A stretch of DNA of 64,000 nt from NCBI GenBank assembly GCA_003550305.1, contig QKYT01000103.1:193381-257380 (forward strand), given 5' to 3'. The position numbers and the translations under genes were made by a program. The DNA comes from Glomus cerebriforme (lineage: Eukaryota > Glomeromycota > Glomeromycetes > Glomerales > Glomeraceae). The notes below the pieces were generated by a model, which saw only the letters and a program-made list of their open reading frames with translations, did not search any database and was not told the DNA's origin. Positions 1,120 through 48,971 of this stretch are shown here, one piece after another. The stretch's first letter is position 1; every line of letters begins with the position of its first letter.

Positions 1120-1932
1120 TAGTATTACGATTTATTAATTCATTAATTCACGGATTCATCTAATTTAAATTTTATTCAGATTATCCAGATGAGTTTCAGA
1201 TGAATAATAAATGATTTGACAGATGATCTGGATGATCTATTAAATAATTTTTTTTTAATTATTGTTAAGAATTTTTTTATACTGAATATATTGGATACTT
1301 TGGGAATAAAAATCAAAATGATGCTTAAAGAAAAGAAAAGAAAAAACATTAATAAAATAAAAATAAAAAAAATAAATTTCCTTTATTAAAATTACCTTCA
1401 AAGTAGTTTCAGAAGGTTCAAGCTGATATCTACAAAAAAAGAAAAAAGAAGAACGTTAATAAACATTTTTAAAATAAAAATAAAAAAATAAATTTCCCTT
1501 TCTATTGAAATTACCTCTAAGATTGTTCCAGAAAATCCAAGCTGAAATCTATAAGAAAAGAAAAAAAAAGAACATTAATAAATGTTCTTAAAATAAAAAT
1601 AAAAAAATAAATCTTCTTTTTTCTATTGAAATTACTTTCAAGACTGTCTAAACTGAAATCTATAAGAAAAAAAAGAGAAGAATTTTAATAAAACATTCTT
1701 AAAAATTTTAAGTCTTAATAGTTATTATACAATTATCTTGAGACTAAAAAGAAAATTTTAAGTAAAAAAAAAGAATTTTTTTTAAAAAAAAAATATGATT
1801 CAGATCATTCAAATTATCTGCATCTGACAGATATTTAAATCAGTAAAGAATAGATTTGCAGATCTATTTCAGATATTCAGATCATTTCAAATCAGATTAG
1901 CAGATCATAGATTCATTTGAATCATAATACTA
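1120..1932 (-). mobile_element. hAT-like non-autonomous element carrying an intron-like tandem array
   Basis: Its ends are TAGTATTACGATT on the left and, on the complement, TAGTATTATGATT on the right. It is flanked by the 8-bp near-duplication GTACTGGT (1112-1119) / GTATTGGT (1933-1940), seven of eight identical. Eight-base duplications are typical of hAT elements. Subterminal zones are rich in CAGATC/GATCTG words. The centre (about 1320-1740) is three imperfect tandem units of about 120 bp. Read on the minus strand, each has a polypyrimidine tract plus TAG/TAG-like end, an exon-like cassette of about 30 nt and GTAATT. No transposase is present. Confidence 0.75.
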
Positions 1933-1940
1933 GTATTGGT

Positions 1941-2559
1941 TTTATAACTAATGCCAATAAATTTCAGTTTGTTTATGTGAAAGATTTAAGATCAATCATG
2001 AAGCAAAAAAAAGAGATCTTTAATAACAAAAAAAATAATCAATAATCTGAAAAGTTTATTTTTAAAAATAGTAAAAAAATTAATCAAAACCTAAAGATGC
2101 TTACTGAAGAAGCTTTTATATTTGGTGGGCAGAGTTTTTGCCTCTGATTTTATATTACCTTGATTTTTGTGGTATATTTTTTTCTGTCAAAAAAGTTAAA
2201 CTATGAAGAAGTACAATCATTATTAATATTAATTTAGATAAGTATCGATTAAATGAAGTAGATAACATTAATTTACTTCAGGAATTTTCTGAAATGCAAG
2301 ATTTCGTATACTTTTACAAATATGTATTGAAATAAGCAGTAAGTATTAATGAAGGATATTTGTATTATGAACTTTAAATATCTACTAATATTACGTTCTG
2401 TTTATATTTTAGTTATTAATTCAGGATAGTGTAATTTACTTTAATAAAGCAAAAATCACCCTTAAGAATGTTATATACAGAAAGTCTATTTCAATTAGAT
2501 GAAACAGTTTTGTAAGATTATAGATCTGTATTTGTGCACATGATTTTTATTACCTATTA
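1941..2559. other. AT-rich intergenic stretch
   Basis: I see no gene here. All frames are interrupted and no recognisable protein words, RNA genes or repeats stand out. Confidence 0.5.
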
Positions 2560-2755
2560 CAGTCAGACCTCCATATAATCACATCCTATATAGTCACATT
2601 ATATAAAATTTTTCTATATAATCACATCTTTGAAAAAACCAACTTATATAAAGATTATATAAAAAAACCTTTATATAGTCACAACTCCTATATAGTCACA
2701 TTTTTGGATTTTTTTACTATGTAACCAACTTGGTGATTATAAAGAGATTTCACTG
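2560..2755 (+). mobile_element. Tigger/pogo-like MITE, 196 bp
   Basis: It begins CAGTCAGACCTCCATATAAT and ends, read on the complement, CAGTGAAATCTCTTTATAAT. It is flanked by TA on both sides (2558-2559 and 2756-2757), as expected for the Tc1/mariner/pogo group. The interior is made of short inverted TATAGTCACA/TGTGATTATA words. Relatives lie at 31458-31658 (opposite orientation) and 54375-54853. There is no coding capacity. Confidence 0.8.
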
Positions 2756-2956
2756 TAATTATGATGATATAGCAATCAATCAGTAACCTACTTCTTATAT
2801 ATATTTAAAGTTAATGAATATAGAAAGATTTTTTATTGTTATATCCTAAGCATGAATTAAGTGATAAATCACCCAAAAATGTTATACAGTATATGCAATT
2901 TGTATTCTAGTCTTTTTTTCAAAAATTAACCATTATATAACTGTAACATATATATC

Positions 2957-3347
2957 TAGTGTTGTGACTTGTGACTGAGATGAGACATATTTTTGGATGG
3001 GATAGTTTAGAACAGTCCAAATTCTTGGACAAAGAACTTGTAATATCTGGAACATTTAATATATATAAACTATAGTAAAATGTAATTTAATAATATCTTA
3101 ATAACCAATTATCTGATTTTAATGAATTTTAGTTCATTAGAACCAACTTATTATGACTAATTGAATGGTAATAATTACATATTTCTAAATTTAATATTGA
3201 TCAAGATATGGCAATATAAAGGGTTTTTTATTATTTTACTATTTATTATATTAGGACAATTATCTTGAACAGGACAGTCTGGAACAGTAAAATAGAACAA
3301 ATATGGGACATTAAAATTCTGTGGGACACTATCTCACTACATCACTA
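2957..3347. mobile_element. Small hAT-like MITE
   Basis: The left end TAGTGTTGTGACTTG faces, on the complement, TAGTGATGTAGTGAG. The flanking octamers TATATATC (2949-2956) and TGTATATT (3348-3355) match at six of eight positions, and both differences are transitions. The interior carries repeated GGGACA/GGACA words. The evidence is the ends plus a decayed duplication, so this is a probable rather than a firm call. Confidence 0.5.
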
Positions 3348-3396
3348 TGTATATTAATAAAAATAATAAAAATAGCACTTTTTTCACAAATTTCAG

Positions 3397-3608
3397 GGAA
3401 TAAAATTCAAGAGATTATAAATAATTTCTTCAAGCAGAAAGATGAATCCCTGAGTCTCCAATTTCTGAAATTTCAGCTAAACACAAAAAAGCACAAAATT
3501 GATGAACTTTTCAAAGTAATTAAAATGACAAATAAAAATCAAGTTATAATCATTATTGAGTTTTCATTTGCTAGAAAAGTTTTTGTAATAAAAGAAGATA
3601 ATGATTAA
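3397..3608 (+). pseudogene. Terminal exon of an unidentified gene, probably a relic
   Basis: After an acceptor-like TTTCAG (3391-3396) a frame runs to TAA at 3606-3608 and encodes about 70 aa with a plausible secondary structure (NKIQEIINNFF...NQVIIIIEFSFARK). The upstream part of this open frame, from the ATG at 3321, lies in the end of the small hAT-like MITE and is not believed. The IIIEFSFA segment has the beta-strand-with-Glu look of PD-(D/E)xK-like domains found in other relics of this window, but that is a weak inference. No upstream exon was found. Confidence 0.3.
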
Positions 3609-4180
3609 ATAAAATTGGGTTAAAATTCAATATGAATTTTAAATAAGTTACTAGAAAGTATACTTAGGAAAAAAGCACATTTATTTAATGCAAAGTATTA
3701 TGATCAGAAGTTAGGTGATTGAAATCTAAATATTCACATATTATGTTTTTTTTATAAATGGTTATATCATTATCAAGTATTTAGTTCATCCTCTACTCTC
3801 AATATATATACTTCAACAATTCATAAGATCAAATTACCCATGTCTTTTAACAATTTTGAGCAGTTTGCAAAACACATGATTAACTTGATGAGTTGGTAGG
3901 TAAGAATCAAAAATGTATGCTTATATAAAAAACCAATAGTAATTTTACTTTTATTATTGCAGATTGATATCTTATCTACAATTAAGGCAATAAATAAAGT
4001 TACAACTATGTCTATATACTCAAGCAGAGGATATACTTGCAAAGGTAAAAAAAATGGAAAAAGAGAATCAAATTTTACCTTCATCTTCCAAATTTTCATA
4101 TCCTGGTGGATTACCTTCAAAATTACTACTATTGATTTAGAATCTTTTTTTATACTATAGTTATATTTTTTCTCCATATA
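3609..4180. other. Intergenic stretch with exon-like islands
   Basis: Short islands look spliced on the plus strand, for example a TTATTATTGCAG acceptor before 3961 followed by about 80 nt open to a GTAAAA at 4046. No consistent reading frame joins them. I do not call a gene. The overlapping minus-strand open frame at 3821-4258 runs into the adjacent MITE end and is probably fortuitous. Confidence 0.3.
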
Positions 4181-5090
4181 CAGTAGCTCACAAAAGTAAT
4201 GCATCACCTGAAAAAAAATAAAAATTATGATATCACATGATCTAAAACTCATTGGCATCTGAAATAAAAAAAAATCTAAAAATAGAATACTGGAGTTACC
4301 TAAATGTATAAATTTATTTTAAATTGATTAGTTACTTTTTGAATTACATGAAATTAAGTTACAAACTACTGATACATTTCTTTTGACTGTTTGAAAATTT
4401 TAAATTTTTATAAGAATTAGCAATATGATTTATGATAAATTAAGTAACAAACTAAGTATTTTATAGCTTAAATTATTATTTAAACTTAAAAAAAATCAGT
4501 AATTTTAGTTTCTATATGTAAATCAAAAATTATTGACCAACTTTACCACTTAATTCCTCATGATCTACTGGTCTGATTTGCATGAAATTTGGCTTGGATT
4601 AATCCTCTTGATTGGAAGAATTTAAATTTATGAGTGATTTTATTATAGAACCTCTTTCCAAAGCTTTGTATGTAATAAAAAATATACTAATTTACTATGT
4701 TACTTAGTAATTTTGAGTATTTTTGCTTAAATAAGTCAATTAATAAATTACTAAAATTACTGATTTTTTTTTAAGTTTAAATAATAATTTAAGCTATAAA
4801 ATGCTTGGTTTATTACTTAATTTGTCATAAATCATATTGCTAATTCTTATAAAAATTTTAATTTTTTTAAAATTTTCAAACAGTCAAAAGAAACGCATCA
4901 GTAGTTTGTAACTTAATTTCATGTAATTCAAAAAGTAACTAATCAATTTAAAATAAATTTATACATTTAAATAACTCCAGTATTCTATTTTTAGATTTTT
5001 TTTATTTTAGGTACCAATGAGTTTTAGATCATGTGATATCATAATTTTTATTTTTTTTTTCAGGTGATGCATTACTTTTGTGAGCTACTG
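4181..5090. mobile_element. Fold-back Tc1/mariner-type MITE, 910 bp, TA-flanked
   Basis: Terminal inverted repeats begin CAGTAGCTCACAAAAGTAAT and are flanked by TA (4179-4180, 5091-5092). The inverted arms are about 320-340 bp (4181 to about 4510, and about 4750 to 5090), imperfect but continuous, separated by roughly 240 bp of unique DNA. CAGT-starting ends with a TA duplication are those of Tc1/mariner elements. No transposase frame is present. The whole element could fold into one very long hairpin. Confidence 0.85.
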
Positions 5091-5092
5091 TA

Positions 5093-6396
5093 ATACTGAT
5101 TAACAGCATTATATTGTAATTGCATCTAAATAAAAATAATAATGTATTGCAACATAGTTATCTAGAATAATATGACAAATTGATTTCATCAGTATTGTTG
5201 GTAGAATTACAATTTGTATGCACACGAATACATGATTTTCATTTATTGATTGGAATTAATATTTCTAGCAGATGTATTATAGTATTGACACATAAATTTA
5301 TTAATAAATAAAGCTTTTAATATGATATTTTATTATGAAAATCATGATGTATTTTTGCTAATCATTATGATTTCATGATGAAAATTGCATGATTTATTAT
5401 CCAATTAATACAATACATTTAGTATGGTTTATCTTAAATAGTATTACATATTTTTGCAGTAATTTATTCTCTCAAAATTTTGTTTCTTCAGAAGTAAGAC
5501 AGAATATTCTTTTTAATAAATATTTTTCAAAATCAATTCATCAAATCAGTTAAATAATCATATGTATGAATCCATCCTAAAATCTTTGATTAAGAAGGTA
5601 ATTTGCGTAATATATAAATATATAATAACATTTAATCAGGTATATTCTGATTTACTAGTTAAATTACCAGCTTTCTTAAAGGCATAGATATATCTTACAT
5701 CATGGAAGCATAATCCATTATTTGAAAAAAGACCAGTGAAATTAATTCAATTATAGAGATATTTTTAAAATATGAAGTTATTAGATATCAAAAAAGATTA
5801 ATATACCAGAGATAAATCTAAAATTGATCAGAATACCCAATATCATTATTATTCAAAGAAATATTAACCATATATGTAGGTCCCAAATTGATAATATCAC
5901 TTGTAATTATGAAAAAGAAAACAATTATCATGTTATGAATAAACTTAATTTGCAATTCATGAAAAATAGAAAGATCGATATTAGATAGTGATTAGTGAAG
6001 TATTTTAACTATAATTTATATATTGCTAAATTAAGCAAAGCACCTCTAACTTGCATTATGATAATTTTAATTAGTATTACAAATAATTTAACTAACATTA
6101 ATTGCAAAAAAATGGGCAAAAAAATATAGCATATCTTATTACTTTATCATATCCATAATCCCCAGCCAGTGATTTTAATAGTAAAATTTAATAAAAATAT
6201 CTAATTGCATAATTTCAGTCCTTATTTAGAATTTGCAATTTTGAAGATATTCTTATAATTTTTTTATGGAAGGTAGCCAGAAAGTCATAAATTAATTTAT
6301 TATTTTTAAAGATCCAAAATGATTATCAAAATATGTTAATATTTGTCAGAATATAGATACTAATAAATTAAATTATAAAATTGCCTTACTGATCAC
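5093..6396. other. AT-rich intergenic stretch
   Basis: About 1.3 kb with frequent stops on both strands. I looked for spliced exons, tRNA-like structures and transposase words and found none that I can support. Confidence 0.5.
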
Positions 6397-7569
6397 TAGA
6401 GGTATGCTCCGGTAAAATCCGTTCAATCTGTCATCTGTTTTTGAACGAATTGGATAATCTGGATTAAGAAATGAACAGATTTTGGATAATCCAGATGGAT
6501 CCGTTGAATAATACCAGATTGATCAGATATTATACAGATAATCAGATTGACCAGATTGATCAGATAATCTGGTCAAATCTGGTATTTTTTTTTATTTTTT
6601 TTTGTTTTTGTTTTTATTTTAATACACAAGAACATTTATTAACATTCTTTTTTNTTCTTTTTTGTAGGAACGAACACTTCGGCTCAGCTCCTGGAGGTAA
6701 ATGGGATAAAAAGGGGGTAGTGAGGTATTTTTTTATTAAACTTTAATACAAGAACGTTGCTAACGTTCTTTTTTTTTCTTTTTTTTAGGAACAAATACTT
6801 CAGCTCGACTCCTGAAGGTAATTGAAGGGGGTGGTTATTAAACTTTAATATAAGAACGTTACTAACGTTCTTTTTTTTTCTTTTTTTGTAGGAACGAACT
6901 CTTCAGCTCAACTTCTGAAGGTAAATGGGGTAAATGAGGAGGTGTTTTTTTTTATTTATTATACAAGAACATTTATTAACGTTCATTTTTTTCTTTTTTG
7001 TAGGAACGAACTCTTCGGCTCAGCTCCTGAAGGTAAATAGGATAAATGGGATAAATGGGGAGGTGTTTTTTTTATTTTATTATATAAGAACGTTTATTAA
7101 TGTTCATTTTTTTTTCTTTTTTATAGGAACGAACTCTTCAGCTCGGCTCCTGAAGGTAAATTGGGTAAATGAGGGAAGTTTCTTTTTATTTTATTATACA
7201 AGAACATTTATTAACATTCATTTTTTTTTCTTTTTTTGTAGGAACNAACTNTTCGGCTCAGCTCCTGAAGGTAAATAGGGTAAATGGGGTAAATGGGGAG
7301 GTGTTTCTTTTTTATTTTATTATATAAAAATGTTACTAACGTTCTTTTTTTCTTTTTGTAGGAGTGACTACTTCACCCACCTTCAATTACAGTATAAAAA
7401 ATCTGGTAAATCTGGTAAATTTGGTGATATAAATGGATCATCAGATTGATCAGATATCTGTTGAACCATCCGGTCAATCCGGTGGTACAAATAGATCAAT
7501 CTGAATCTGATCAATTTTTGAATAGATGACCGGATATCCAGATTGGCCAGATTTCAGAACATACCTTTA
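6397..7569 (+). mobile_element. Array family A element, copy 1
   Basis: The ends are TAGAGGTATGCTCCGG on the left and, on the complement, TAAAGGTATGTTCTG on the right. The flanking octamers CTGATCAC (6389-6396) and CCGATTAC (7570-7577) agree at six of eight positions, with both differences C/T. Subterminal regions are dense in GATCAGATTGAC-type words and partly inverted with respect to each other. The centre is the intron-like module array described separately. The element carries no credible protein-coding gene: the open frames inside run through the repeats. A second copy lies at 14240-15769. Confidence 0.75.
6575..7400 (+). repeat. Seven-unit intron-like module array (family A)
   Basis: Seven units of about 110-120 bp. 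Each contains AAGAACGTT-ACT-AACGTTCTT or a variant (a 9-bp hairpin whose loop gives TACTAAC or ATTAAC), then 12-20 pyrimidines, then TAG, then a 29-nt cassette GAACGAACTCTTCGGCTCAG plus nine further bases ending GAAG or GGAG, then GTAAAT or GTAATT. The first cassette lies at 6668-6696. Later ones start near 6789, 6891, 7004, 7127, 7242 and 7362. The order of signals is that of an intron acceptor, exon and donor. Confidence 0.8.
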
Positions 7570-7602
7570 CCGATTACTAATATAGATCTTTTCATTTTTT
7601 AC

Positions 7603-7960
7603 AAATTGCGAATTAATATTATTCTTTATTTTAGTATTATATTAAAAATTAGTAATTTATAAGAATGTGTAAGTTACTTCAACAATATGAAAAAATCAAT
7701 TAAGATAAGTATAAAACATATGATACAGANCAATATGAAAAAATCAATTAAGATAAGTATAAAACATATGATACAGATAAATATAATGCATATATTGCAG
7801 ATTTTATATTATTTTATTGGTTTAAATTTTAATATTGTTCTTTATTTTAGTATCATATTAAAAATTAGTAATTTATAAGAACGTGTAAGTTACTTCAACA
7901 ATACTAAAAATCTAAGTATAAAATATATGATGCAGATAAATATAATGCATTTTATTATTT
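7603..7960 (+). repeat. Local duplications downstream of family A copy 1
   Basis: A unit of about 50 bp (CAATATGAAAAAATCAATTA...) is repeated twice in tandem around 7685-7780, with an N at the junction. A longer flanking segment starting TTAGTATTATATTAAAAATT (7632) reappears at 7847 (TTAGTATCATATTAAAAATT). The open frame at 7687-7878 is made by this repeat. Confidence 0.6.
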
Positions 7961-8135
7961 TAAATTTTAATTTTGTTTTCTTTTTTTATGTAAGTAATTT
8001 TAATGATATTAAAAATTAATGAAATTAATACAGTTTCTAGATTTTTTAAATAAGTATAAAAATATATAAAATAACAATTTTTTATTTTTTAATTTTATAT
8101 TTTTTTCATTTTATATTTTTTATATTTTTTTAAAA

Positions 8136-10496: not shown

Positions 10497-12533
10497 CATT
10501 GGGGAAATTTTAGAAGCGCAGAATTGCGAAAATCTGTAAAATTTGCAGATTTCTGCTTTTTTTAATAAATATCTGTGCAGTTCTTCAAATAAAGTTTTTA
10601 GAAAAAATCTGCAATAATCTCTAATATTGCAAATTTGTAAAAAACTTTATGTAAAAAGCTTTGAAGATTTTATTTTATTCTGATAAACTTCAGTTAAACT
10701 ATTATTTAACTGTTTTAAATTTTAGGTTTTGAAGTTTTGGACAAAATTGGTAAGTTCTCCAAACTTCATGTTTAATCTGCGACATGCAGATTTTTTTCTT
10801 TTTTTTTTATTAATTTTTGCAGGACTCCGAACAGACTGAACTTCTCTCATTATCTCCGGACTTTACTTTCAAAGATAAATAAAGTATATATATATTATTA
10901 AATAAATGTTTACTAACATTCTTTTGTATTTTTTTAGGGTTAGAAGTCAAAATGTAAGTTCTGAACTCCCCATTTCAAAGGTAATAACTTCAAAATTATA
11001 TTTTTTTTTTTTTATTTTTTTTTATTAAATAAATATTTACTAATGTTTTTTTTATTTTTTTAGGTTCCAGAAAACTAAAGTACAGCTCTGGACTTCCATT
11101 TCAAAGATAAGACTTCAAAATTTTTGTTTGTTTTTTTTATTAAATGAACGTTTACTAACGTTCTTTTTGTTTTTCTTTAGATTCCAGAAAACTGAAGTAC
11201 AGCTCCGAACTCCCATTTTGAAGGTAATAACTTTAAAATGAATTTTTTTTTATTTTATTATTTTTTTTATTAAATGAACATTTACTAATGTTCTTTTTAT
11301 TTCTTTAGGTTTAGGAAGTCAAAGGACTCTATTTTTGAAGGTAATTTTTTAAAATTCTGTTTTTTTTTGTTTTTTTTTTAATTTAATGAATGTTACTAAC
11401 ATTCTTTCTTTTGTAGGTTTGAATTTTCAGGTATAGAACTTCAAAATAGATTTGTAGTGAAGGAGGAGGAGTATTAAAAGAAATGTTACTAATGTAACAT
11501 TCTTTTTTTTCTTATAGATTCAGATTCAACTTGAACTTCGAAGATTAGGACATCAGCTTCAGAATTTGATTTAGACTTCGAAGGTTTGTATCAGAGGAGA
11601 TATAATTTTTTTTATTAAAGAAATGTTACTAATGTAACATTTCTTTTTTTTTGGAGGACTTCGGCTTCAGATTCAACCTAGACTTTAAAGGTTTGTATCA
11701 GAGAGATAGAATTTTTTTTATTAAAGAAACGTTATTAATGTAATATTTCTTTCTTTTTTGTAGAACTTCAGCTTCAGATTTGACTTCTTGGACTTCAAAA
11801 TTGAAAGTTTTTTAGAGTTATCTACTTTGTTTTTTTTAATGAAATGTTTTACTAATGTTTCTTTTCTTTTTTTTATAGGTTCTTCCGGGCAGTACTTCAA
11901 AGGTATATCTTCAAAAAATTTTTTATTTTTTTTTTATTTTTAATGAAATATTACTAACTAACATTTCGTTATTTTTTTTTGTAGGTTCTTCCGGGTGGAT
12001 TATAGGATTTTGATAGTATAATATCTTCAAATTATTTTTAATTTCTTTTTTAACAAATGTTAATAACTAATGTTTATTATTTCTTTTTTTTTGTAGATTC
12101 TTTTGGGTGTGAGTATGTAGGATTTCAATGAAATATCTTAGTTGTTTGTTGAAATTGAACTAACTGAAACTATGTTCAAAATATTAACAACATGTAAAGA
12201 AAAAATCAAAGAATAGGAACTTAGTTTTTTTGTAGTTTAATTTGTAAATATATTTGACTGTAATTAATAAAATTAATAAAGCATAAATTACATTATACAA
12301 CTAAAAAGTGATATATATAAAATGTATAACTAAAATATTTTGCAGATTTATCTTTTTCTTCAGAAATTTTCGCAGATTTTATCTTAAATTTTTTCGCAGA
12401 TTTTTTGACTCTTGGAGATCTGTACAAATTTTCTTAACTTTTTCCTTCAGCGCATGTCGACAGGTTCGCAGAACTGTGCAAATTTTTATACTGCAGAATT
12501 GCGCAGTTCTGCACCTTAAAAATTTTGCCAATG
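10497..12533 (+). mobile_element. Array family B element
   Basis: The ends are CATTGGGGAAATTTTAGAAG and, on the complement, CATTGGCAAAATTTTTAAGG. TA is present on each side (10495-10496, 12534-12535), but no longer duplication is visible. Both subterminal zones are rich in GCAGAA/TTCTGC words. The centre (about 10860-12130) is a tandem series of intron-like modules: ATTAAATGAACGTTTACTAA, pyrimidines, TTTAG, a cassette such as ATTCCAGAAAACTGAAGTAC, then GTAATAACTT. Unit sequence drifts along the array. No transposase is present. A truncated relative of its right end lies at 20700-20905. Confidence 0.65.
10860..12130 (+). repeat. Intron-like module array (family B), about eleven units
   Basis: About eleven units of roughly 90-140 bp. 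Recurrent signals in each are a hairpin with TTACTAAC or TTACTAAT in the loop (for example GAACG-TTTACTAA-CGTTC near 11147-11165), a polypyrimidine run, TTAG or GTAG, an exon-like piece of about 30-50 nt and a GTAA-type donor. The last three units (from about 11880) have a different cassette, TTCTTCCGGG. Confidence 0.7.
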
Positions 12534-14239: not shown

Positions 14240-15769
14240 TAGAGGTATGTTCCAGTAAAATCCGTTCAATCTGTCATCTATTTTTGAACGGATTGGATAA
14301 TTCAGATTAAGGAATGAACAGATTTTGGATAATCCAGATAGATCCATTGAATAATACTGGATTGATCAGATTACTGGTCAAAAACTGATCTATCTTACAG
14401 ATATCTTATAAATATCAGGTACCCAAAATGCAGAAAATCTGCTATACATCGAGTATTCAATATGTATATTATAGAATTAAAAAATACAATCTATTAATTA
14501 TCTCGCTATCCAGTAATCATAAAATGATAAAATATAGCTCATTCAATTCGCCTCACTGAGACGTATCGAATGGTACTAATTTCGCATTTCTAGGTGTGAT
14601 AGATGCTGAGATATTTGATAAATCGTAAAAAAACAAACAAAAAATGCAATATCTCGATATCTATCACACCTAGAAATGCGAAATTAATACCATTTGATAC
14701 GTTTCAGTGAGACGAATCGAATGAGCTATATTTCATCTTTTTATGATTACTGGATAGTGAGATAATTAATAGATTGTATTTTTTAATTTTATAGTATATA
14801 TATTGCGTATCCAATATTTATAAGATATCTGTAAGATAGATCAGTTTTTGACCAATGGATATTACACGAATGATCAGATTGACTAGATTGATCAGATAAT
14901 CTGGTCAAATCTGGTATTTTTTTTTTTATTTTTTTTTTTGGTGATGTTTTTTTTTATTTTAATACATAAGAATGTTTATTAACATTCTTTTTTATTCTTT
15001 TTTTATAGGAACAAACTCTTTAGCTTAGCTCCTGGAGGTAATTGGGAGGATATTAAACTTTAATACAAGAATATTGCTAATGTTCTTTTTTTTTCTTTTT
15101 TTTAGGAATGAACACTTTGGCTTGACTTCTGGAGGTAATTGAAGAGGAATGGTTATTAAACTTTAATATAAAAACGTTGTTAATGTTTTTTTTTTGTAGG
15201 AACGAACACTTTGGCTCAGTTCCTAAAGGTAAATAGGATAAAAGGGGGTGGAGAACGGAGGTGTTTCTTTTTTATTTTATTATACAAGAACATTTATTAA
15301 CATTCATTTTTTTTCTTTTTTGTAGGAACGAACTCTTCAGCTCAGATCCTGAAGGTAAATGGAGTAAATGGAAGCGGAGAGAGGTGTTTCTTTTTTATTT
15401 TATTATACAAGAACATTTATTAATATTCATTTTTCTTTTATTTTTTGTAGGAATGAACTCTTCGGTTCAGCTTCTGGAGGTAATTGAAGGGGGGTGGTTA
15501 TTAAACTTTAATACAAGAACGTTGCTAATATTTTTTTTTCTTTTTGTAGGAATAACTCTTTACTCACCTTCAATTACAGTATGTAAAGTTTTATAAAAAA
15601 ATCCAGTGGATCCAGTGAATCCGGTGATATAAATGGATCATCAGATTAATCAGATATCTGTTGAACCATCCGGTCAATCCAGTGGTATAAACGGATTAAT
15701 CTGAATCTGATTAATTTTTGAATGGATGACTGGATATCTGGATTAACCAGATTTTGGAGCATACCTTTA
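14240..15769 (+). mobile_element. Array family A element, copy 2, inserted in a hAT transposase
   Basis: The ends are TAGAGGTATGTTCCAG and, on the complement, TAAAGGTATGCTCC, the same as copy 1. TTAG abuts both AGGTATG ends (14239-14242 and 15767-15770), so it is either a 4-bp target duplication or part of the conserved tip. The octamers outside the TAG/TTA tips do not match. Removing one TTAG copy plus the element joins the flanking hAT reading frame (..EL|NWASKLI). The left half contains a nested palindromic MITE (14372-14857). The module array runs about 14940-15590, with six units of the same cassette as copy 1. Confidence 0.75.
14372..14857. mobile_element. Near-perfect palindromic MITE nested in family A copy 2
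   Basis: The 486 bp form two inverted arms of about 225 bp around a short centre (near 14615-14640). The ends are TACTGGTCAAAAACTGATC and, on the complement, CATTGGTCAAAAACTGATC. GAT is repeated on both sides (14369-14371, 14858-14860). Copy 1 of family A has the uninterrupted sequence at this place (GATCAGATATTATACAG near 6522), which confirms the insertion. There is no coding capacity. Confidence 0.85.
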
Positions 15770-15939
15770 GTTCTTACATAATATGATGTAATAATTCTGT
15801 TATATTTCGATCAGATAGATAATCTTTTTTTTTAAAAAAAAATTATCAAATATATTTTTAATTAACTCTAATCCCTACCCTTAACTCTTTCAGAATATCT
15901 ATTTTTTTTATAAACTTCTAGTAAGTTAAAAATTCTGAA

Positions 15940-16860
15940 ATGTTTTGAGAAATATTAGTATAACGAGTTAACAACTAATATTTTTTTATTTTTGTAGGAA
16001 CGCAAATGTCTTGGTTTAGCTTTAAAAGGAACATTAGTATAATGATTAACATTACATCTTTTCTTTATTTTGTAGTGAATGTAGAATGGCTTTGGGTGAG
16101 TTGAACTTTGGCAAAAAGGTTTAAGAAATGTTAGTATAATAACTAACATTTTTTTTTCTTTATTTTGTAATCAATACAAAAGTTAATCAGAATAGCCTTT
16201 GAAACTTATCTAATGAGCTGTAATTTGACAAAGAGGGTTTAAAAAACATTAGTATGATGACTAATATTTCTTATTTCTTTATTTTGTAGTGAACGGAAAG
16301 GCCTTACTTAAGGACTCTTAGGTGAGTTGTAATTTGGTGAAGGTAATTTAAGAAATATTAGTATGATAACTAATGTTTCTTATTTCTTTATTTTGTAATG
16401 AATAGAAAGATCTTGCTTAGGAACTCTTGAGTTAGTTGTAATTTGGCAAAGGTGATTTAAGAAACGTTAGTATGATGACTAATGTTTCTTATTTTTATAT
16501 TTTATAGTGAATGGAAAGACTTTGTTTGGAAACTCTTGGATAAGTTATAATTTGGTAAAGGTGGTTTAAAAAATGTTACTATGATGACTAATGTTTCTTA
16601 TTTCTTTATTTTATAGTGAACGGAAAGGCCTTGTTTGGAAACTCTTGGCTGAGTTGTAATTTGGTGAAGGTGGTTTAAGAAACGTTAGTATGATGACTAA
16701 TGTTTCTTATTTCTTTATTTTGTAGTGAATGGAAAGATCTTATTTGAAAACTTATTTTAGGTAAGTTGTAATTTGGCGAAGAGGGTTTAAGAAATGTTAG
16801 TATGATAACTAACATTTCTTATTTTTTTTATTTTGTAATAAACATAAAAAGACCTTGAAA
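15940..16860 (+). repeat. Intron-like module array (family C), about nine units
   Basis: Units of about 105-110 bp read AGAAACGTTAGTATGATGAC followed by TAATGTTTCT (inverted halves AGAAACGTTAGT / ACTAATGTTTCT), then TTATTTCTTTATTTTGTAG, a cassette TGAACGGAAAGGCCTTG... and a donor-like GTGAGTTG or GTAAGTTG. In three units TAG has become TAA. The array probably lies in a larger element reaching about 17100, but I could not define its ends. Confidence 0.7.
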
Positions 16861-17318
16861 ACGGTGGGAATAGGATCTGGTATGTTGGATTTTGTCAAAA
16901 TATGCAGAGCGAGGATGATTTATTGATTATCTGATATGCATCTGATTGGCTATAAAGTTTCGCAGCAGTTTTTTCATTTTGCAATTGTTAAAGTTTTGCC
17001 AATGGCAAAATATTTTGTCAATAGTTTTAACTTCACTATTTGAAATTTCACTATTTCGCAAAATTCAAAATAAGTTTTGCCCAGAAACCTTAGCCATGTA
17101 GAAGAAATAATCAAGAAAAAATAATCATGTATATTGACTTAGATATTATGTATCACAAGCTACATTCTGATCCTATGTATTTATTTTTGCATATATTAAT
17201 AAAAAAATAATGATATTTTTTTTTGGCAAAAGTGATTGATATGAAGAATTTTCTTTCATATATATAAAAGTTTTTTATTATTTTGAATGCTTATGTATAG
17301 TATATAGTTTTATAAATC

Positions 17319-31090: not shown

Positions 31091-31091
31091 A

Positions 31092-38954: not shown

Positions 38955-40705
38955 CAAAATATTGGGGGCACTCTCCCTAACAATCCCTATGTCCATTTCT
39001 CCCAAGAAGTTTGGGAAAGAAAAGTTGCACTTTTTGGCTATTTTGCTCTAAGAAAGTGGTCTTTTAGTCATAGGAAAAGTGTTGCTACGTCACTGGAGTT
39101 AACTAGAAAGCTTTAGAAAATATGGATAATAGTCTCCGGCTCACCAAGTTTCTTCGCAAGTCAAGCTTATGATAATTTCCAGTCACTGACATTTTTTTCA
39201 AAGTTGATACCTAAGGGGCCATTTGGTATTCTCAGGCTCTCTTTCTTGCACAAGACAGCGAAGAAGACTTGTGACTGCTTCTGGTGGATCCAAAGTTAGC
39301 TTAGCATGAAGTTTCTTTGGAAGTAAAAACCTTTTCATAGAGTTGAAGTATGAGCTTAGATAACAAGGGAACTCTTTCTGATGTTCTGGGTATAGAAGAA
39401 AGTAACCCAGCTGGTTTGGTGTTTAGTTGTCTTTTGTTTATTTATTTAGTTTTCATTTTCTGGTCACTTCTAAATGCCTCTCTCTGAGTAGTTTCTGGAA
39501 AGGCACAGCAAAGCTGTTTTCTTCTTCAAACTCGCTACTTTAAGTGTGGGGAGTGGGGTATCCGAAAATTGATCTGCAACTGATCACTGTTATGTGATTG
39601 GTTCCCATTGTTATTACATTCCCTTTAGTTTAGTTTCACAGATGGTAATCCCTTTTGTGTAGCCTGATGGTGTTGAATTTGATTGGATAGTTGAAGAAAA
39701 TTTTATCTGCTCACTCCTTTCTTATTTTTGTATACTGAAAACTTCGTCAGGGATTGGTCATTATTGGTGTCAGTGTTCCACCTATGTTTTTCCTACCTCA
39801 TCCGCTGATATTATTACTTGCGTTGTCAGTACTAGCTTTATGCCAAATACGTGTAATCAACTTTATAGGGCCGCTGGATCAAATGTGAAGGAATTGCCTA
39901 TAAAGTATGGGAGCAGAGATCCAGTCGTCGTGAGCAATTTTGGAATTCCAAAGTATGCCTATAACCAAGTTCTGGAAGCTGTCGGAAAGCTTACCATTTT
40001 TATTCTTGACCTTTTTCTAGAGGCTGGCATCAGTATTCAGCCTTTAGAAAGTTATCAATATTTTGAGCTGGTTTGAAGACCCACACCTGTTTTGAGGGGA
40101 GATTTAGGTAACCTAAAGGATTATTGGGTAAGAAGGGTAGAATATAGATGATTTTGTTTTAGAATGATGGAAGATAGGTAAATAGTATTGGAGGCCCAGG
40201 CATAGAATCATTAGAAGAGGAAGTATGTATAGGATTGGATAGGAAGGGAGTTAGTAGATTAGAGAAAATAGCGTTAAAAAAAGTATATAATATTCTATTA
40301 ACAAGTGGTAGTTTTTACTGCGAGGTAAAGGTATCCTTCTAAATACTCTGTTCTTAATGGGCAAGGTAAGATTTCTCAGACTGGGTACATATGGGATTGT
40401 ACCACTCAGTTTAGAATAGCGGTCTTTTCCCACCCTGCTTCATCGGTAGGTATGAAGTAACTTTGTCAGACTTTCTGCTTTTCTCCAAGACTGCAGGTAT
40501 GTATAGATGTCTAAGGAGGGTATTTCTTGATGGTAACTGATGGTAACATTACTCACCTGCAATAGAAGAAGTGCATCCCCTTTAGCAGATATGATGACTT
40601 TAATCAAATAGAAGTAACATGTATTAATGTATTACAATAAGTGTGCTAATGGTGTATTCTTGAATAATCATTAATAAAATTGTGTACGTATTAAAGGAAA
40701 AAAAA
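38955..40705 (+). mobile_element. Retroposon family R, young GC-rich copy ii, poly(A)-ended
   Basis: Flanked by a perfect 17-bp direct repeat AAATTTAAGCATCAATT (38938-38954 and 40706-40722). The 5' part starts GGGGGCACTCTCCCT (38974) after a few non-matching bases. The 3' end has TTAATAAAATTG followed by GGAAAAAAAAAAA. Target-primed retrotransposition produces such duplications and tails. It is about 40% GC against roughly 20% around it. No reverse transcriptase is visible; the longest open frame (39840-40076, 78 aa) resembles nothing that I know. It is therefore a long non-autonomous retroposon or a retroposed non-coding RNA. It is inserted next to the broken hAT gene. Confidence 0.85.
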
Positions 40706-40967
40706 AAATTTAAGCATCAATTATTATTATTTTTATGAATATATATATGTATATAATTTATTAATTTAATAAAAATTTATATAAAATAATAATAAAAAAT
40801 TATTGTATTATTTATTCATAAAATACAATTCTTTTCTTGTACAATAAATGTTTTAAGAGCTGATCATTTTGCGTAATATATTTTTATTGATCAATATCAT
40901 TTATTAAGCAAAATTTATATACAAAACTAAAACCATAGCTACAAAAATTAAAACTATGGTTATTGAA

Positions 40968-43323
40968 CTAATTTAATAGAGGAAAAATATCAAAAAGATC
41001 ACTATTTTTCTTTAAGAATAACATTTTATCTACCAATTCTAGAGACAATCTAGTTTGCCTATTTGAAATGTGATTACCTGCATCTGAGAAAAGCCTCTCA
41101 CTAGGTACAGATGCTGCAGGAATAGATAAATACTTTCTTGCAATTTGAGCTAAAACTGGTAAAGTACTCTTATTATCTAACTATCACTTTAATGAATCAT
41201 CCTTCAATCTGATTTGCTTTTTTTGCAAATAAAGCACCAATTTATCATTATCTCCTATATTTGTTTTCTTATCTTTTAATACTTTAAAAATATTATCATC
41301 ATCATCTGAAGAGCTAATNATACTATTAATACTATCTCTAAATAAAAGATACCTTTTTGCATCATTATATAATTCTTGAACTAATTCTTTAGTTTTATCC
41401 TTATCAGCATTACTATTACACCAATCAAAATTTTTAAAATAAGAATCCAAAAATGTTGCAATAAGCATAATATTAGATGGTGCTGNCCAAAGCTCATCCA
41501 AAGATAAATAAATAACTACATGAACTTTTTGTAATAAACCTTTTGTATTTACTAGTTGTAAGTATTTTACAATATTTATATCATTCAAATTTGATTCAAT
41601 TGGATGAGATATTAATGTTCTATCTCTTCTACAACCTTTACCCTAACTCTGATCTTAATTTCATGTATTTCACATCTTTGGTAATAAAATTAATGATGTG
41701 AATATTACCAATATTGTTTTATTCTACCTGATAGAATATATTCATCATTACTAACTATATTAGATTTCTCTTTTTCATCATTAGAGCCATAAACTAAACT
41801 GAAATAGGATTCAAAAGTTTTATCTTCTTCTTCATTAGATGCAAAATTATTTTTAAGTATATACATATATGGAACAATAAGACTTAATATTAGATATTTT
41901 GCACCACTAATTTTGCATGTTATAATTTCAAAAGATTTCAAAGTAACAATCATTTGTTGAAAGAATCTGAATAAAAATATAAAAATTAATAAAAAATTTA
42001 AATTTATATATAAAAGATAAACAAAATTTACATTTTCTCATCTGGGTTTAAATATAATCGTTTTAACTTTTCACCTTCCTTTTGTAATGCTTGGTCAGAT
42101 TTTGAAAGTAAATCTGTAAATATCATATTTCTCATAAAGTTATGCAACTCAAGAATACGCTTCCATGCTAAATAGGTCGAATTCTATTGAGTTTTAACAT
42201 TTTCAGATAAATTTACTTAGGAATTCTGTTGTATTGCATGAAGCCTTTTAGCATGTTTAAGTAAGCAAAAAAAGATCTGTAAACTCTTTACATGATGATA
42301 AAATGCTTTACATTGTTTTAAACCTTCCATTACTAAAAGCTGCAAAGTATGTGCAACACAAAATTGGCGTTGAATTTGTTTAAGATAGTTTTCTCTTAAT
42401 AAATGAACTGCTTTTACCATATTTATACCATTGTTAGTGGTTATAGTAAAAGCTGTTGAAGTTAGGTTCCAATTTTCTAATATTTGAAACAATTCATCAC
42501 AAATAATCTAACCAGTATGAGGATAAGAAAGGTGATTGCATGATAGTAAAGCTTTTTAAAATTCAAAATCTGAGGTTAATCATGTTGCAGTTATGCCAAG
42601 ATAACCATGCCATGATTTAGATATTTAAAGATCAGTTGTTAAATGCACTGTTACTGCTGTACTTCTTAATAAAAACTGAAGTTGCTTTTTACTTCATATA
42701 TATGCTAAGAAAAGCATGTTTTTAATAGACTTATTACAAGAGATTTTATAACCTGGCTCACATGTTAGTAAAAAATCTTAAAATGCTTAGTTTTATAGAA
42801 CATATAAAGGTTAAATATTTTTAACAATAAAAGTAGTAACTTTTTTAATAATTAATTCTTGATGTTTAGAAGAACATGATGGAGAATTAAGATTTATGGG
42901 ATTAGATAATTAATTAATATAATAAGATTTTTTGTATAAAAGTCACATTACTTAATCACTATATAAATTAATATAAATTAAATACCTCTTCATATTTATC
43001 CAGATATTCTGAATAGTTATCCTTAGTTATATTATGTTTNTCCCTTAAATGTATTATAAGATTAGTTATATTCCCACCTTTCTGACTATAGCCATAAGCT
43101 TTTTTATTTGTATTTGCATAATTTAATTCACAAATTTTATAATAAGCCAAATATGATGTTTACATTATGTAATATTTACTAATCCATGCAAATCTCCTTT
43201 TATATTAAAAAAAAAAATGATGTATGACTACAGTTTTTTTGCATTAAAACAGTTTGGCATTGATTTTGTATGATTGTATTATCCTCAGATATCATGAAAT
43301 GTAGATGGTGGGCTTGTCATTTT
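40968..43323 (-). pseudogene. Broken hAT transposase (zf-BED type)
   Basis: Minus-strand blocks: a possible N-terminus MTSPPSTFHDI (43323), then a BED zinc-finger remnant CELNYANTNKKAYGYSQKGG...LIIHLR.KHNI (43120-43000). Next are NNGINMVKAVHLLRENYL...RQFCVAHTLQLLVMEGLKQ (42430-42300, the hAT catalytic/insertion region), LDELW.APSNIMLIATFLDS with YFKNFDW (41500-41420), and an almost perfect dimerisation domain [20 protein letters not shown] / [20 protein letters not shown] (41150-41040), ending at TAG 40968. Several stops, frameshifts and two N positions are present. Possible element ends are AGAGTTTGGAACTGGTTGTA at about 38780 and, on the complement, AGATCTGGAACAGGTTGTTG at about 43470. No matching 8-bp duplication was found. 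Confidence 0.75.
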
Positions 43324-43479
43324 AATAACAAAAAAAATACTAAATTTTTAGGAAAAAAATTAAGGTAGTTAAAATACTGTAAGAATTATTTTATAAATTC
43401 ATGTAAGAACTATTTTGATTATGATGTAATTTGTTGTGAAAAAATTAGCAACAACCTGTTCCAGATCTGGTTTAAGTGT

Positions 43480-45000
43480 AGATTATAGAATTTCAAACTT
43501 GTAAATCATAGCATTGTTGCAATATTATCATTATAACAATAACTTAATATTTTAATGTATTAATAATTTATTATGGAATAAAATAGTTGTTTTAATATTA
43601 ATACAATAATGAATTTAAAAAACCAGTTTTTTATTAAGCATATTAATTTTATAATGAATAGTAAATCAGCCAGATAATTTGATGGTTATTAAATAATCCA
43701 CTAAAATTACTAGTTTATCTGAAATAAGCATTAAAATTTTCTAATTTATTAAATAATTTTAAGAAAAAAGTAATTTATTGCTATAGCGATGTATTGCTAT
43801 TCCTGTCACGTGACATGTTATATCATATGACTTATACTATATAATAACTAGGGATGTGGGAGGTACAACAAATGTGTTACACAATTATATTTCTAATAAA
43901 CATAACTGTCTTATATATAAAATTCATATGTGTTACTAATAAAATGTAACGATCAATAGAGAAAACACCCTTGCAATTAAAAAATTCAGCCAATTAAACT
44001 AAGTCATCCTTAAAATATGGTGATTGTTACATCTCTTTTTATTATTTTCAAATCTTATAAATACATTTGAACATCGCTAAAGAGAAGAAAAACACCATCA
44101 GTGATTTTATTTTAGTATTTATGATAAAAAAATCAATATGTAAAAATCTTAAACAAGTTTATTTTAATAAATTTTTAATAAACCAGTGGGTTATTATTGT
44201 CAAAAAAATATTTTTTATTATTTTTTTAATTTAATTTTCTTTATATATATTTTAGAATAATACTAGAATAATATAATACATTAATAACTAACCTAAGAAA
44301 ACCAAAAATGCACCAATAATCATAAAATTTTAGTAATATACAGTTCTCACTAATACTAATCTACTTTTGAACATTGGCTTTTAGAAACGTCGCATATCAA
44401 AAGTTATAGCTTTTGAGATGTTTCTTGATATATTAAATTAATAAATAATCATCATATTCAGGGTAGATATTACTAGACAGTTACGATAGTTATACAAATC
44501 ACATAATATAGTAAGTAGTACCCCCCACACCTCTAGATAATAAAGGGAATCTTATCCTATTTTCAGAATTTACAATTTTATCCTGTTTCTCCCTGCATCA
44601 GCCACTGAGTCACATCAACCCTTATTTATTGTTTACTGTTATCGTTATACATAATACACGCTTACTTCTATCACTCTTTCTTTTCCTTTTTCTTTTTCTT
44701 TTCCCTTTCTTTTTAAATATTTTAGAAGTAAATATTTTTTAATACTAGCTTAAATATGAAGTATTATTTATAAAGCTATGAATATTTTTCACATTTAATA
44801 TTTTATTTTTCATAACAGACACATTTTTTAATATAAAATTTATACCATATAATTTTACAAATAGATTGACTTTATCAATAAGCAAAATTGCTCAACAGAT
44901 ATGGAGCTATATATATATTAATTTTCATCAAGCTAGTTCAGATATTCATGTAATTATACTTATTTTTTGTAATATTTTCATGCAGATACTTTGTGGTGTA
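43480..45000. other. AT-rich stretch with a decayed relative of the 45803 MITE
   Basis: At 43765-43830 GTAATTTATTGCTATAGCGATG followed by CCTGTCACGTGAC is a mutated version of the end of the MITE at 45803-46189. Nothing else recognisable; no genes seen. Confidence 0.4.
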
Positions 45001-45150
45001 ATTTAAGCATTTTGGTCAAAAAAAACTGGCTTCTATTGAATAAATAAAGTTGCTCAGCAGATATGAAACTACTTAAATATTAATTTTCACTACACTAACT
45101 CAGATATTTGTAAAGTTATACTTATTTTTTGTAATATTTTCTTCAATCCA
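44866..45150 (+). repeat. Imperfect direct repeat of about 125 bp
   Basis: 44866-44990 and 45028-45150 share AAATTGCTCA(A/G)CAGATATG, AATTTTCA(T/C), CAGATATT and TTATACTTATTTTTTGTAAT. No coding meaning is evident. Confidence 0.55.
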
Positions 45151-45375
45151 AATTTAAAAGATTGCCAGTTTGGAAATGAAAGGCCTGGTATTAATTCTAA
45201 TATAGATTCATTATCTAACTCATTATTCTCATCATTTACATTATCTACATTATGTATATCTAGAGATAAGAGTTATCATTAGTATTTAATGATTCTAAGA
45301 AGATACTATTGTTAAGTGATGATGTTAAAGATTGTAAAGATTGTAAATAATCTGGTTCATCTATAAGATCCTAAT
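45148..45375 (-). pseudogene. Remnant of a MULE/FAR1-like N-terminus
   Basis: Minus strand reads DLIDEPDYLQSLQSLTSSLN, NSIFLESLNTNDNSYL and, after a frameshift, NDENNELDNESILELIPGLSF PNWQSFKFGLKK. The acidic leader followed by LIPGLSFPNWQSF is the start seen in FAR1/MULE-like transposases of these fungi (recognition). Nothing further of the gene follows. Confidence 0.4.
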
Positions 45376-45802
45376 GAAAAAAATGGATTAATTATATATT
45401 GACAGATGGTTTATATGAATGAAAGAAAGAAAGTAAAACTTACTATTATAGATGATGAATATGTATTATTTATTTTCATGGATAATATAATAAGAAAAAA
45501 GAATAGAAAAATAATAAAAATAATAAAAATAATTTATTTCATCAATATTTATAAATTAAATCAATTAAATCACACGTAATTATAAAATGAAAAGTCTATA
45601 AAGTCTATCAAATTACGTCACATTAGTAATAACATGTGATAAGTGTACAAACACATAGTATATAATAAGTAATATTCTATATTTTTTTATAATATAAATT
45701 TGAAGCAATTTTTTTATTTTTTAAAAAAATCAATCTGAGAATTTTTGATTAATATTTTTTTAACTACTAAAAAAGATTTAACATAATTAATATAAGGATT
45801 TT

Positions 45803-46189
45803 GTAATTTATCGCCATGGCGATGCATCGCCACTGTCACGTGATTCATAATTCTGGCCGGAATTAAATAATCTGCAATGAAATTGCCTTTATAGGAATCT
45901 TGCATAACCCAAAATTTCAATTTTCGAGAGAAATAAAATTGCCTTTTTTTGGATTGTGTAATGTTACCTAAGATCCAAATAAGGATATTTTGGCCAGCGT
46001 TATAAAATTTGGGCAAAATTAAACATGTAATGAATAACATGTGACAAATAGTATTTATCATACCGAAAAAATTCTGTCCCTAGAATAAATAGTAAAAATG
46101 GAAAACTACGGTGTGATGCGGGGGGTGACAAATTATTATATAGTATAAGTCACGTGGGGTGGCGATGCATCGCCATGGCGATAAATTAC
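45803..46189. mobile_element. MITE with GC-rich palindromic ends
   Basis: Inverted ends GTAATTTATCGCCATGGCGA followed by TGCATCGCCA and, a little further in, CACGTGA on both sides. Within each end GGCGATGCATCGCC and CGCCATGGCG are themselves palindromes. The flanks are T-rich, so a duplication cannot be defined. The 115-aa minus-strand open frame at 45714-46061 crosses the end and is fortuitous. Confidence 0.7.
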
Positions 46190-46821
46190 TTTTTTCTTAA
46201 TATAATATATAACTTTTTGAAATTAACAAATATTTTAATAGAATTTCATATAAAATAAAACAATATTATAGTTTAAAATTAGCTATATATTACTTAATAC
46301 ATTTTAATAATCAGAAAATTAAAGTTTAAAAATAAATAATTTATTAAAAACTTCTTATTAAGAAGAACATTTTGATAGAATATTCATAAAAAATAAAGTG
46401 ATATTGATGGAAATATAGCAGTTTAAATGTTTTTTAACAAGATCAACTCTTGTGTAATATGATATTTTTTAAAGATATTTTATTAACTAATGATTGAAAT
46501 TTGATAATTTTTAATTTGCTGAATTGTCATATTAAAACAAATATTTTTGCAATAAATTTGTGAAAAATAGAATAATCAATTTATTGTAAATTATTTATAA
46601 ATTACCTATTTTTATTTTTTGATAGTTTTTTTTAATATCAAAAATAAGTATTAATATTGTGAAGGATAATATTATCTATATATAACAAAATTGTACTTAG
46701 TTTATGCATAATGACTTAGTGTAATATATTTAATAATAATATTTTTATATATTATAATTAAAAAAGAAGAAATTGCTAATTTAAAAAACTATACAAATTA
46801 TCATTATTTTTCACTACTGCT
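46190..46821. other. AT-rich stretch
   Basis: No features that I can support. Confidence 0.4.
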
Positions 46822-47228
46822 GTATGTAATATGAGTCCTCAGAATGAGGACTAAAAGCAAGATCTTCTTAGATACAAACTATACTTTGATTCTCCTCTAT
46901 ATTCTAGTATTAGAACTAATAAAAAATTCCTTTAACCAGTCTACCTGAATCTTCTCTCAAACGAATATCCTTTATCCAGTTCATCTGAATCTCTCCACAA
47001 TCTATTGGATCTTTAAACTAGTATGAAATATTGATAAATTTCTAAAAACTGGCTACTAGTACCAGTCTTTAGACAAAGAGTACCTCTCATCAAATAGGAT
47101 TTTTTAACTATGAAACATTTTAAGTAGAATTGTAGAAACTGCTATTAGTACTAACCTTCAGGAAGAAAAAACTATTTAAAAGAACTAATACTAAAAAATA
47201 CAAAAAAAAAATACAATAGTACCTCTAT

Positions 47229-48971
47229 TAGTGTTCTGAAAAAAATCTGATCTGATCTGAAACTGCAAATTTGATTTGAAACAGATTCAGATCAGTTTGC
47301 AAATTTAAGATCTGTAGATTTGATCTGAAGTAAATAAATCTGATCTGAATCTGATCAGATCAGATCAGATTATAGTATAAAAAAATCCAGATCTGATTTA
47401 ATTAGATTCAGATCTTTATATATTAAATATGATAAATAAAAAAAAAAGTTTTTTTTTTATTTTTATCTTTTTTAGAGACGTTAAAGATGGAATTTGGATA
47501 ACTGAATGAACAGTTCCTAAATGAACTAAAGGTGAGTTCATTCTTTTTTTACTTTATTTTTTTAGGAAAAGTAATTAACATTCCCTTTTCTCTTTTTTTA
47601 GAAAACTGGATAAATGAATGAAGCTGAATAAACAGAACTTAAATAAATGAATTAAGAGGTTAGTTCATTCACTTCATTCATTTTTTTACTTTCAGAGAAT
47701 GTAATTAATATTTCCCTTCTCTTTTTTTTAGAAAACCAGATGAATGAATGAAGCCAAATGATTGAGATCTTAGACGAACGTAAGTTCATTTTTTTTTACT
47801 TTATTAATTATTAGAGAAAGTAATTAATATTTCCTTTTCTTTTTTTTTAAAAAAAACTGGATGAATGAACAAAGCTGAATAAACAGAACTTAAACGAATA
47901 AACTAAAAGGTTAGTTTATTCATTTCTTTTATTTTTTACTTTTAAGGAATATAATTAATATCTCCTTTCTCTTATTTTTAGAAAACTGGATAAACAGATA
48001 AAGTTAAATGAATAGAACTTGAACAAACGAACAGTTTGTTTATCTCTTTTCTTTTTTTACTTTCAGAGAACATAATTAATATCTCCCTTCTCTTCTTTTA
48101 GAAAACTGAATGAATAATTAGATTCAGATCGGTTTAGTTTCAGATTTGAATTAGTTTCAGTTAGTATTTCACATGAATCGAATCAAATCAAATTGAATTA
48201 GATTTGAATTCAATTCAATCAAATCACAAATTATTCAAATTCAATTCAAAATTCAATCGAATTAAATCAAATTAATTTGGATTTGTTGATTTGATTTGAT
48301 TTGATTCAATTCAGATTTGATTTGAATTCAATTTGATCTGATCTGATTTGAATTTGAATACAATATGCCATTATATCCATACCTATAAATTATAGTAAAA
48401 ACTAATAAAAATTAAAAATTAAAAAGAAATATAATAAAATATTGAGAAATTAGAAGTTTTTAATAAATTTATTTAAAAGAAAGTAATAAATTAACAGTTC
48501 TTTTTGAAAAATAATAGAAAAGGTAAAGGTAATTAGCAAGCTGTATCCATATATTATTATATCGATACAAAAAAAATTATAATCGACAAATCAGAATCCA
48601 AATTAATTCAGTTAAATCAAATTTGATTCAAATTCAATTTGGATTTATAAATCGAAACTAATTAAATCAAATTCAGATTTGATATCAAATCCAAATTTGA
48701 GATTTAAATTTGATTCATGATTTAAAAATTTTGAATCAAATCAAATCAAATTCAATTTGGTTGAATCGTCTATAAAATACTAGTTTCAGTTCAGTTCAGT
48801 TTCAGATTAATTAGTAAATCCAAATCAGTTCAGTTCAAATCTGGATCAGTTTTAGATTATTTTAGATCAGATCTAGTCAGATTTAGATTAGTTCAGATCT
48901 GTTTCAGATCAGATTTAGATCAAATCAGATTTAAATCAAATCTGATCTGAATTAATCTGTTCAGAATACTA
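47229..48971 (+). mobile_element. Array family D element, hAT-like
   Basis: The ends are TAGTGTTCTGAA and, on the complement, TAGTATTCTGAA. The flanking octamers ACCTCTAT (47221-47228) and ATCTCTAT (48972-48979) differ by one C/T. Subterminal zones consist of AGATCTGATCTGAA-type words. The module array is at 47440-48120: six units with TTAATATTTCCC, TCTTTTTTTAG, an AAAACTGGATGAATGAA... cassette and GTAAGTTC, GTGAGTTC or GTTAGTTC. A further hAT-like MITE is nested at 48162-48782. Confidence 0.8.
48162..48782. mobile_element. hAT-like MITE nested in the family D element
   Basis: The ends are TAGTATTTCACATGAATCG and, on the complement, TAGTATTTTATAGACGATTC, with the perfect octamer GTTTCAGT on both sides (48154-48161 and 48783-48790). 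Both arms are AAATCAAATTCAATT-like inverted repeats around an AT-rich centre. No coding capacity. This is the third level of nesting at this place (retroposon iii, then D, then this). Confidence 0.8.

Follow-up and report, generated by a model that had tools for sequence, protein, structure and literature searches.

Tandem Arrays of Microexon-Like Cassettes and Intron-Like Spacers Inside Transposon-Like Elements of Glomus cerebriforme

Intron-Like Arrays and Their Carriers at the Locus

A window of 64,000 nucleotides (nt) of the arbuscular mycorrhizal fungus Glomus (Rhizophagus) cerebriforme was analysed (GenBank assembly GCA_003550305.1, contig QKYT01000103.1, positions 193,381 to 257,380 of the forward strand; positions below are those of the window). 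It contains transposon-like elements in which short exon-like cassettes and intron-like spacers alternate in tandem. A sequence-only reading had placed tandem units of one shared plan at six loci, and parsing at pyrimidine-rich AGs revealed serial units at 6/6 of them. Each unit, of about 97-130 bp, holds in order a donor, a branch box, a pyrimidine tract, an AG and a short cassette. Serial microexon-intron arrays in transposons are real and widespread in this genome, and splicing of the arrays in RNA is likely. The elements and arrays of the window are the following.

1120..1932, minus strand: non-autonomous hAT-like element with tips TAGTATTACGAT / ATCATAATACTA and flanking octamers GTACTGGT / GTATTGGT
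About 1343-1690, minus strand: intron-like array inside this element
6397..7569, plus strand: hAT-like copy of family A, 1173 bp, with tips TAGAGGTATGCT / AACATACCTTTA and octamers CTGATCAC / CCGATTAC
6590..7380, plus strand: family A array with cassettes of 29 nt and intron-like spacers of about 74-95 nt; its branch box lies within a hairpin of the AAGAACGTT-NCT-AACGTTCTT type
10497..12533, plus strand: family B element, class not settled, with inverted tips CATTGGGGAAAT / ATTTTGCCAATG
10895-11311 and 11553-11780: arrays B and B', respectively, within 10860-12130 of the family B element
14240..15769, plus strand: second copy of family A, octamers only 2/8 matching
About 14381-14848: palindromic insert lying inside the second copy of family A; its perfect arms, of 35 bp, are at 14381 and 14814
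14936..15550, plus strand: array of the second family A copy
15940..16860, plus strand: family D array with cassettes of mostly 32 nt and a hairpin of the AAGAAACGTTAGT-ATGATG-ACTAATGTTTCTT type
About 15767-17093: similarity of family D to copies L062 and L067, the ends of D not being settled
47229..48971, plus strand: family E element, hAT-like, with tips TAGTGTTCTGAA / TTCAGAATACTA and octamers ACCTCTAT / ATCTCTAT
47440..48115, plus strand: family E array with cassettes of mostly 48 or 57 nt; its branch box ATTAA(C/T) lies within a hairpin of the GGGAATGT-AATTA-ACATTTCCC type

Tandem Repeats Finder (TRF) returned nine rows with periods of 97-126 for the window. They represent seven arrays, at 1344, 6848-7363, 10895, 11553, 14985, 15186 and 16236, every one inside the named loci. 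The array at 47440 was missed by TRF but was visible on parsing. Not every unit was as complete as first described: the signals stood in the expected order, but GT or AG was lost in several units.

The Units Carry Splice Signals in a Fixed Order

Eleven representative units, picked by us from nine families (A and D twice each), were scored for a GT of fair score, a branch box, a pyrimidine tract and an AG at intron spacing, any GT being accepted. This order was present in 11/11 units, compared with 14-38 of 300 dinucleotide shuffles of each (5-13%), and 0/3 other tandem repeats passed the same test. A scoring GT stood at the expected cassette end in 9/11 representatives and was absent there in both D representatives. 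When a 7-bp stem at the branch box was added as a requirement, 5/11 units passed, both D units included, compared with 1-6 of 300 shuffles. Moreover, 11 of 15 representatives had a branch hairpin that folded better than its shuffles (p<0.05); the fold was not better in A2, G, F and the E unit of the window, while the family E hairpin was significant in copy L079. The features that define a U2-type intron, namely a GT donor, a branch box, a pyrimidine tract and an AG at intron spacing, were thus found in the units.

The cassettes were uniform in length within families, with 29 nt in 261/329 for A, 32 nt in 16/20 for D and 35 nt in 9/10 for G/I, and 10/10 E cassettes had lengths that are multiples of three; the cassette script parsed 0 units of family F. 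Six of 10 cassettes hand-picked as least decayed were open in all three frames (tail p 1.6e-4), a figure affected by biased picking, and one B' representative in this set had altered end bases. Among unpicked units, three-frame openness was found in 9/20 for D (fraction in shuffles, 0.10), 2/11 for H (0.02), 1/3 for B' (0.03), 1/10 for G/I (0.06) and 69/329 for A (0.18), and in none of the units of 1120 (2 units), B (3), J (3) and E (10). These values are suggestive only.

The Arrays Recur Across the Genome

A search of the genome for the arrays, the check proposed together with the first reading, was made on the 112.5-Mb assembly of 1117 contigs, which may be incomplete. A-type units gave 318 matches at up to 3 mismatches, with 0 in the reversed control. 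The D pattern gave 16 matches and the E pattern 3. A general hairpin-branch pattern, AGAAAYRTT..TAAYRTTTCTT, gave 749 + 731 strand matches (1,480; reversed control 0), in which a single place may be counted twice as the pattern is palindromic. In family H the donor too lies within a palindrome, GGTAAGTTTC..GAAACTTACC, which matched 550 times at up to 2 mismatches (control 0).

Eleven loci of our choice from 100 listed matches of the general pattern were inspected by eye. All 11 resemble arrays with two or more units, L086 and L088 weakly so, and several of them carry new cassettes. By eye, the plan recurs in nine or more unit families, which differ in their cassettes and hairpins. In a TRF set of 309,296 letters, consisting of the window and overlapping loci mostly fetched for A and D, extra intron-like arrays stood next to A copies at L009, L021, L022 and L051. 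Arrays of similar period at L005 and L046 were not intron-like.

The Carriers Resemble Non-Autonomous hAT Transposons

The tips of family A are TAGAGGTATG / CATACCTTTA, which form short terminal inverted repeats, and those of the 1120 and E elements are of the TAGTRTT type. Three of the arrays had been said to lie in elements with such tips and near-matching octamers. This was borne out, with octamer matches of 7/8 for 1120-1932, 6/8 for 6397-7569 and 7/8 for 47229-48971, the second family A copy (14240-15769) showing 2/8. For family A, 30 loci were fetched by their left end, and 23 of these, one being the first copy of the window, had a right end by our criterion. The octamers matched at 6/8 or better in 19/23 copies, compared with a shuffled mean of 0.98 and a maximum of 7. 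Target site duplications of 8 bp and short terminal inverted repeats, both expected of hAT elements, were therefore present, and we take the tips and duplications of A, 1120 and E to be the hAT pattern. At least three carriers in the window thus look like non-autonomous hAT transposons.

The hAT dimerisation domain PF05699 gave 143 matches in the genome (150/265 candidates scored). None was seen by eye within 3 kb of family A places among the matches listed (100/318, and a further 40), and the comparison of PF05699 matches with the listed A places identified no autonomous hAT partner for family A. One PF05699 domain lies in the window itself at 41004-41231 on the minus strand, between arrays (E 2e-12, two stops).

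The first splice site of the family A array is an acceptor, although a weak preceding GTATTT might act as a donor, and the last donor-like GTAT of the array is some 180-190 bp short of the right tip. Therefore, the arms of family A would be removable only with host sites. The proposal that a whole insertion could be removed stepwise is not sustained by this layout, nor by the annotated protein P0001 described below, in which the first intron begins outside the element and a stop is reached in the last cassette.

Annotated Gene Models Join the Cassettes

When A cassettes were joined across the predicted junctions and translated, five annotated G. cerebriforme proteins were found (E 6e-18 to 1e-4). 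The joined and translated H cassettes found six, with a best E of 2.5e-15 and 4/6 below 1e-3. Annotated proteins were thus obtained for 2/3 families tried (A and H, not D). P0001 threads exactly through copy L035 and joins nine array exons, this being one solution of a script that tried GT/GC..AG introns of at least 40 nt. Its first intron, of 732 nt, starts outside the element and leads into the L035 array, where the introns measure 68-83 nt plus one 141-nt skip. The skipped cassette is the one after a 43-nt spacer, one array exon is entered at an AG one base off, and the protein ends at a stop in the last cassette.

P0006 and P0007 have a common start exon, a diverged form of which is recognisable in H copies L097 and L098. 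P0006 gave 126 genome matches, 53 of them reaching E 1e-3 and nearly all at its last exons; it could not be placed exactly in the genome, the top-scoring match having 50% identity. These results showed that public gene models join cassettes at predicted sites in two families as serial microexons. As a separate observation, family H is dispersed in the genome as an element no shorter than 2.9 kb, which carries an ATG exon of its own and some 15 microexons (in L097) and whose 3' part contains an AATAAA.

The Families Are Probably Related in Part

The unit families had been described as not alignable to each other. The arrays at 6575-7400 and 14940-15590 proved to be one family (A), and the family A profile aligned to the introns of 1120 (E 7e-8) and B (E 3e-5), weakly to E (E 0.009) and not to D (E 0.77), with the caveat that T-rich sequence may help these scores. 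The description therefore holds for D and fails for 1120 and B, and a full lack of common descent can no longer be upheld. Since the A profile aligns in this graded way, the shared plan is probably due in part to common descent. By eye, the stems are GAACGTT/AACGTTC in A, GAAACGTT/AACGTTTC in D, H and I, and GGAATGTT/AACGTTCC in J, and the differences between families are matched on both arms. Hairpin pairing thus seems to have been kept between families while the sequence changed.

Decay of the Copies

The decay of family A copies was followed in 297 rows, after removal of matches not spanning the model, matches with more than 2 N, duplicates, and 11/308 with at least 25 gaps. Most changes in C and G columns were C to T or G to A. 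The A and T columns were mostly near-invariant, save where subfamilies differ from one another or the spacer changed in length. Among the best-kept G columns is the donor G, retained in 278/297 rows (93.6%); retention in other G columns ran from 52% to 95% and was lowest in CpG or subfamily-variable ones. The acceptor columns were clipped by local alignment and hence not judged. These results indicated that the copies decay much like neutral transposon DNA; any selection would act on the source elements. The C-to-T/G-to-A bias is as found after cytosine methylation or a process like repeat-induced point mutation.

In family H, the donor G was lost with the mirror arm intact in 23 strand matches, compared with 152 in which the mirror C was lost and the donor was intact. 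This contrast was not counted as protection of the donor, because one unit type (L090) seems to carry the mirror change as a fixed difference.

Probable Serial Splicing and Its Alternatives

We consider it probable that the arrays are transposon-borne tandem exon-intron units, predicted to be spliced serially as microexons and grown by unit duplication. A unit would consist of a short cassette and one U2-type intron (mostly 68-95 nt in A), with the branch box placed in the loop of a short hairpin or next to it. Transcription of the sense strand would start from an adjacent gene in family A and from the start exon of the element itself in family H, and the spliceosome would remove the spacers singly and join cassettes of about 29-57 nt. 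Because every unit holds its own donor and acceptor, the arrays could grow or shrink by unequal exchange without loss of splice sites. The 3' half of the intron (hairpin, branch, pyrimidine tract and AG) would be common by descent at least to A, 1120 and B, the cassettes having diverged. The earlier idea of elements that pre-package serial introns with microexon-like cassettes is thus partly supported, by the transposon-like carriers and by the gene models that join cassettes.

Several observations weigh against serial splicing. The donor G of family A was not kept above another G in GG context (282/297, 94.9%), and no covariation was found within A at three hairpin pairs tested (p 0.90, 0.29 and 0.14). 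Selection for splice signals, which the sequence-only reading had considered, is not supported at the level of individual copies by these two results; the three hairpin pairs change independently. Furthermore, intron-removed cassette junctions gave 0 matches in the genome at up to 3 mismatches, many cassettes contain stops, and the joined D cassettes found no annotated protein at E up to 1. The evidence consists of sequence and gene models, and ab initio gene finders could produce such models.

One alternative is passive minisatellites, in which a captured intron with a partial exon was amplified in transposons by slippage or unequal exchange, the signals being relics and the arrays unspliced and useless. 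Tandem repeats inside such elements are generally common, and copy changes of mainly one type, a donor G without clear protection and the lack of covariation all agree with this explanation. However, it does not account for the same signal order in at least nine families with differing cassettes and hairpins, nor for gene models that use the splice sites, and we regard it as unlikely while taking it seriously.

A DNA-level role of the hairpins and T-runs, in cruciform formation, transposase binding or array growth, would make the splice signals incidental. The hairpin arms are indeed near-perfect palindromes, and the H donor likewise lies in a palindrome, but the ordered branch box, pyrimidine tract, AG and GT on one strand and the exact cassette joins in P0001 are left unexplained, which makes this role highly improbable. 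We give similarly little credence to introner elements proper, in which every unit would be an intron that moves into genes and is then removed: transposon ends, target duplications and introns do co-occur, and inverted repeats are also described in a report on fungal introner-like elements (PMC8469720), but the units are internal to larger elements, a solitary intron was seen by eye in 0/11 fetched loci, and the duplications flank the whole element and not an intron.

Serial splicing of transposon-borne units may also be taken further, to mobile microexon genes across the genome. These would be self-expanding series with hairpin-presented branch boxes (in H also the donor), transcribed and serially spliced, that bring many introns and short exons with each insertion, and in which several ancestral cassettes may have been kept open in all three frames. 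We put this forward tentatively and regard it as doubtful.

Comparison With Known Systems

Non-autonomous hAT elements and miniature inverted-repeat transposable elements with central tandem repeats exist, with tips, 8-bp duplications and a central array. The carriers resemble them in these three features and in that no transposase was found, and differ in that each of their repeat units comprises an exon and a whole intron. Introner elements are reported to have arisen repeatedly from non-autonomous transposons, and many of them have inverted tips and 3-9 bp flanking duplications and bring spliceosomal introns (PNAS 2022, PMC9860276). The likeness is that introns are carried by elements with tips and flanking duplications. 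In contrast to the introners outlined there, the introns here lie within the element, in series and with cassettes between them, and the splice sites do not coincide with the tips of the element. A dispersed copy corresponded to an array and not to one intron in a gene at 11/11 loci by eye. The arrays would work like introners but are not introners, because their units are internal arrays.

Fungal introner-like elements and symmetrical stwintrons are described as single introns with terminal repeats of 45-55 nt and without flanking duplications (PMC8469720). They share with the arrays multiplying intron sequences with inverted-repeat symmetry, whereas the symmetry here is that of a hairpin of about 7-14 bp, which contains the branch box and lies within transposon arrays. 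The introns are serial with cassettes between them, and none is nested in the splice signal of another as in a stwintron. The SP7-like effector genes of Rhizophagus are likewise tandem-repeat genes of the same fungal group, in which a conserved intron precedes the first repeat; one intron per repeat is not mentioned in the sections available (PMC11333574). Among the open-access papers listed by literature searches, such arrays are reported in no title or start of an abstract.

Intron gain from mobile elements has so far been described one intron at a time. Elements with many serial introns and microexons would provide both multi-intron genes and microexons, and may show a way in which jumping DNA could equip genes with numerous introns in a single event. 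With hundreds of units spread over several families, some with intact and some with broken sites, natural replicates are available. A warning also follows for database users, namely that some public proteins of Glomus cerebriforme are transposon arrays.

Further Observations in the Window

A CATGAGTCCTCA..TGAGGACTGAAAGC motif lies at 50453-50481, with a similar stretch in L035 and near 46835. We presume a resemblance to a degenerate hammerhead core; Rfam at gathering scores gave no match in the window. Telomere-like CTAACCC/CTAATC repeats occur inside the contig at 28363-28554 and 30023-30126. An open frame with an F-box-like domain is located at 59586-60197 on the minus strand.

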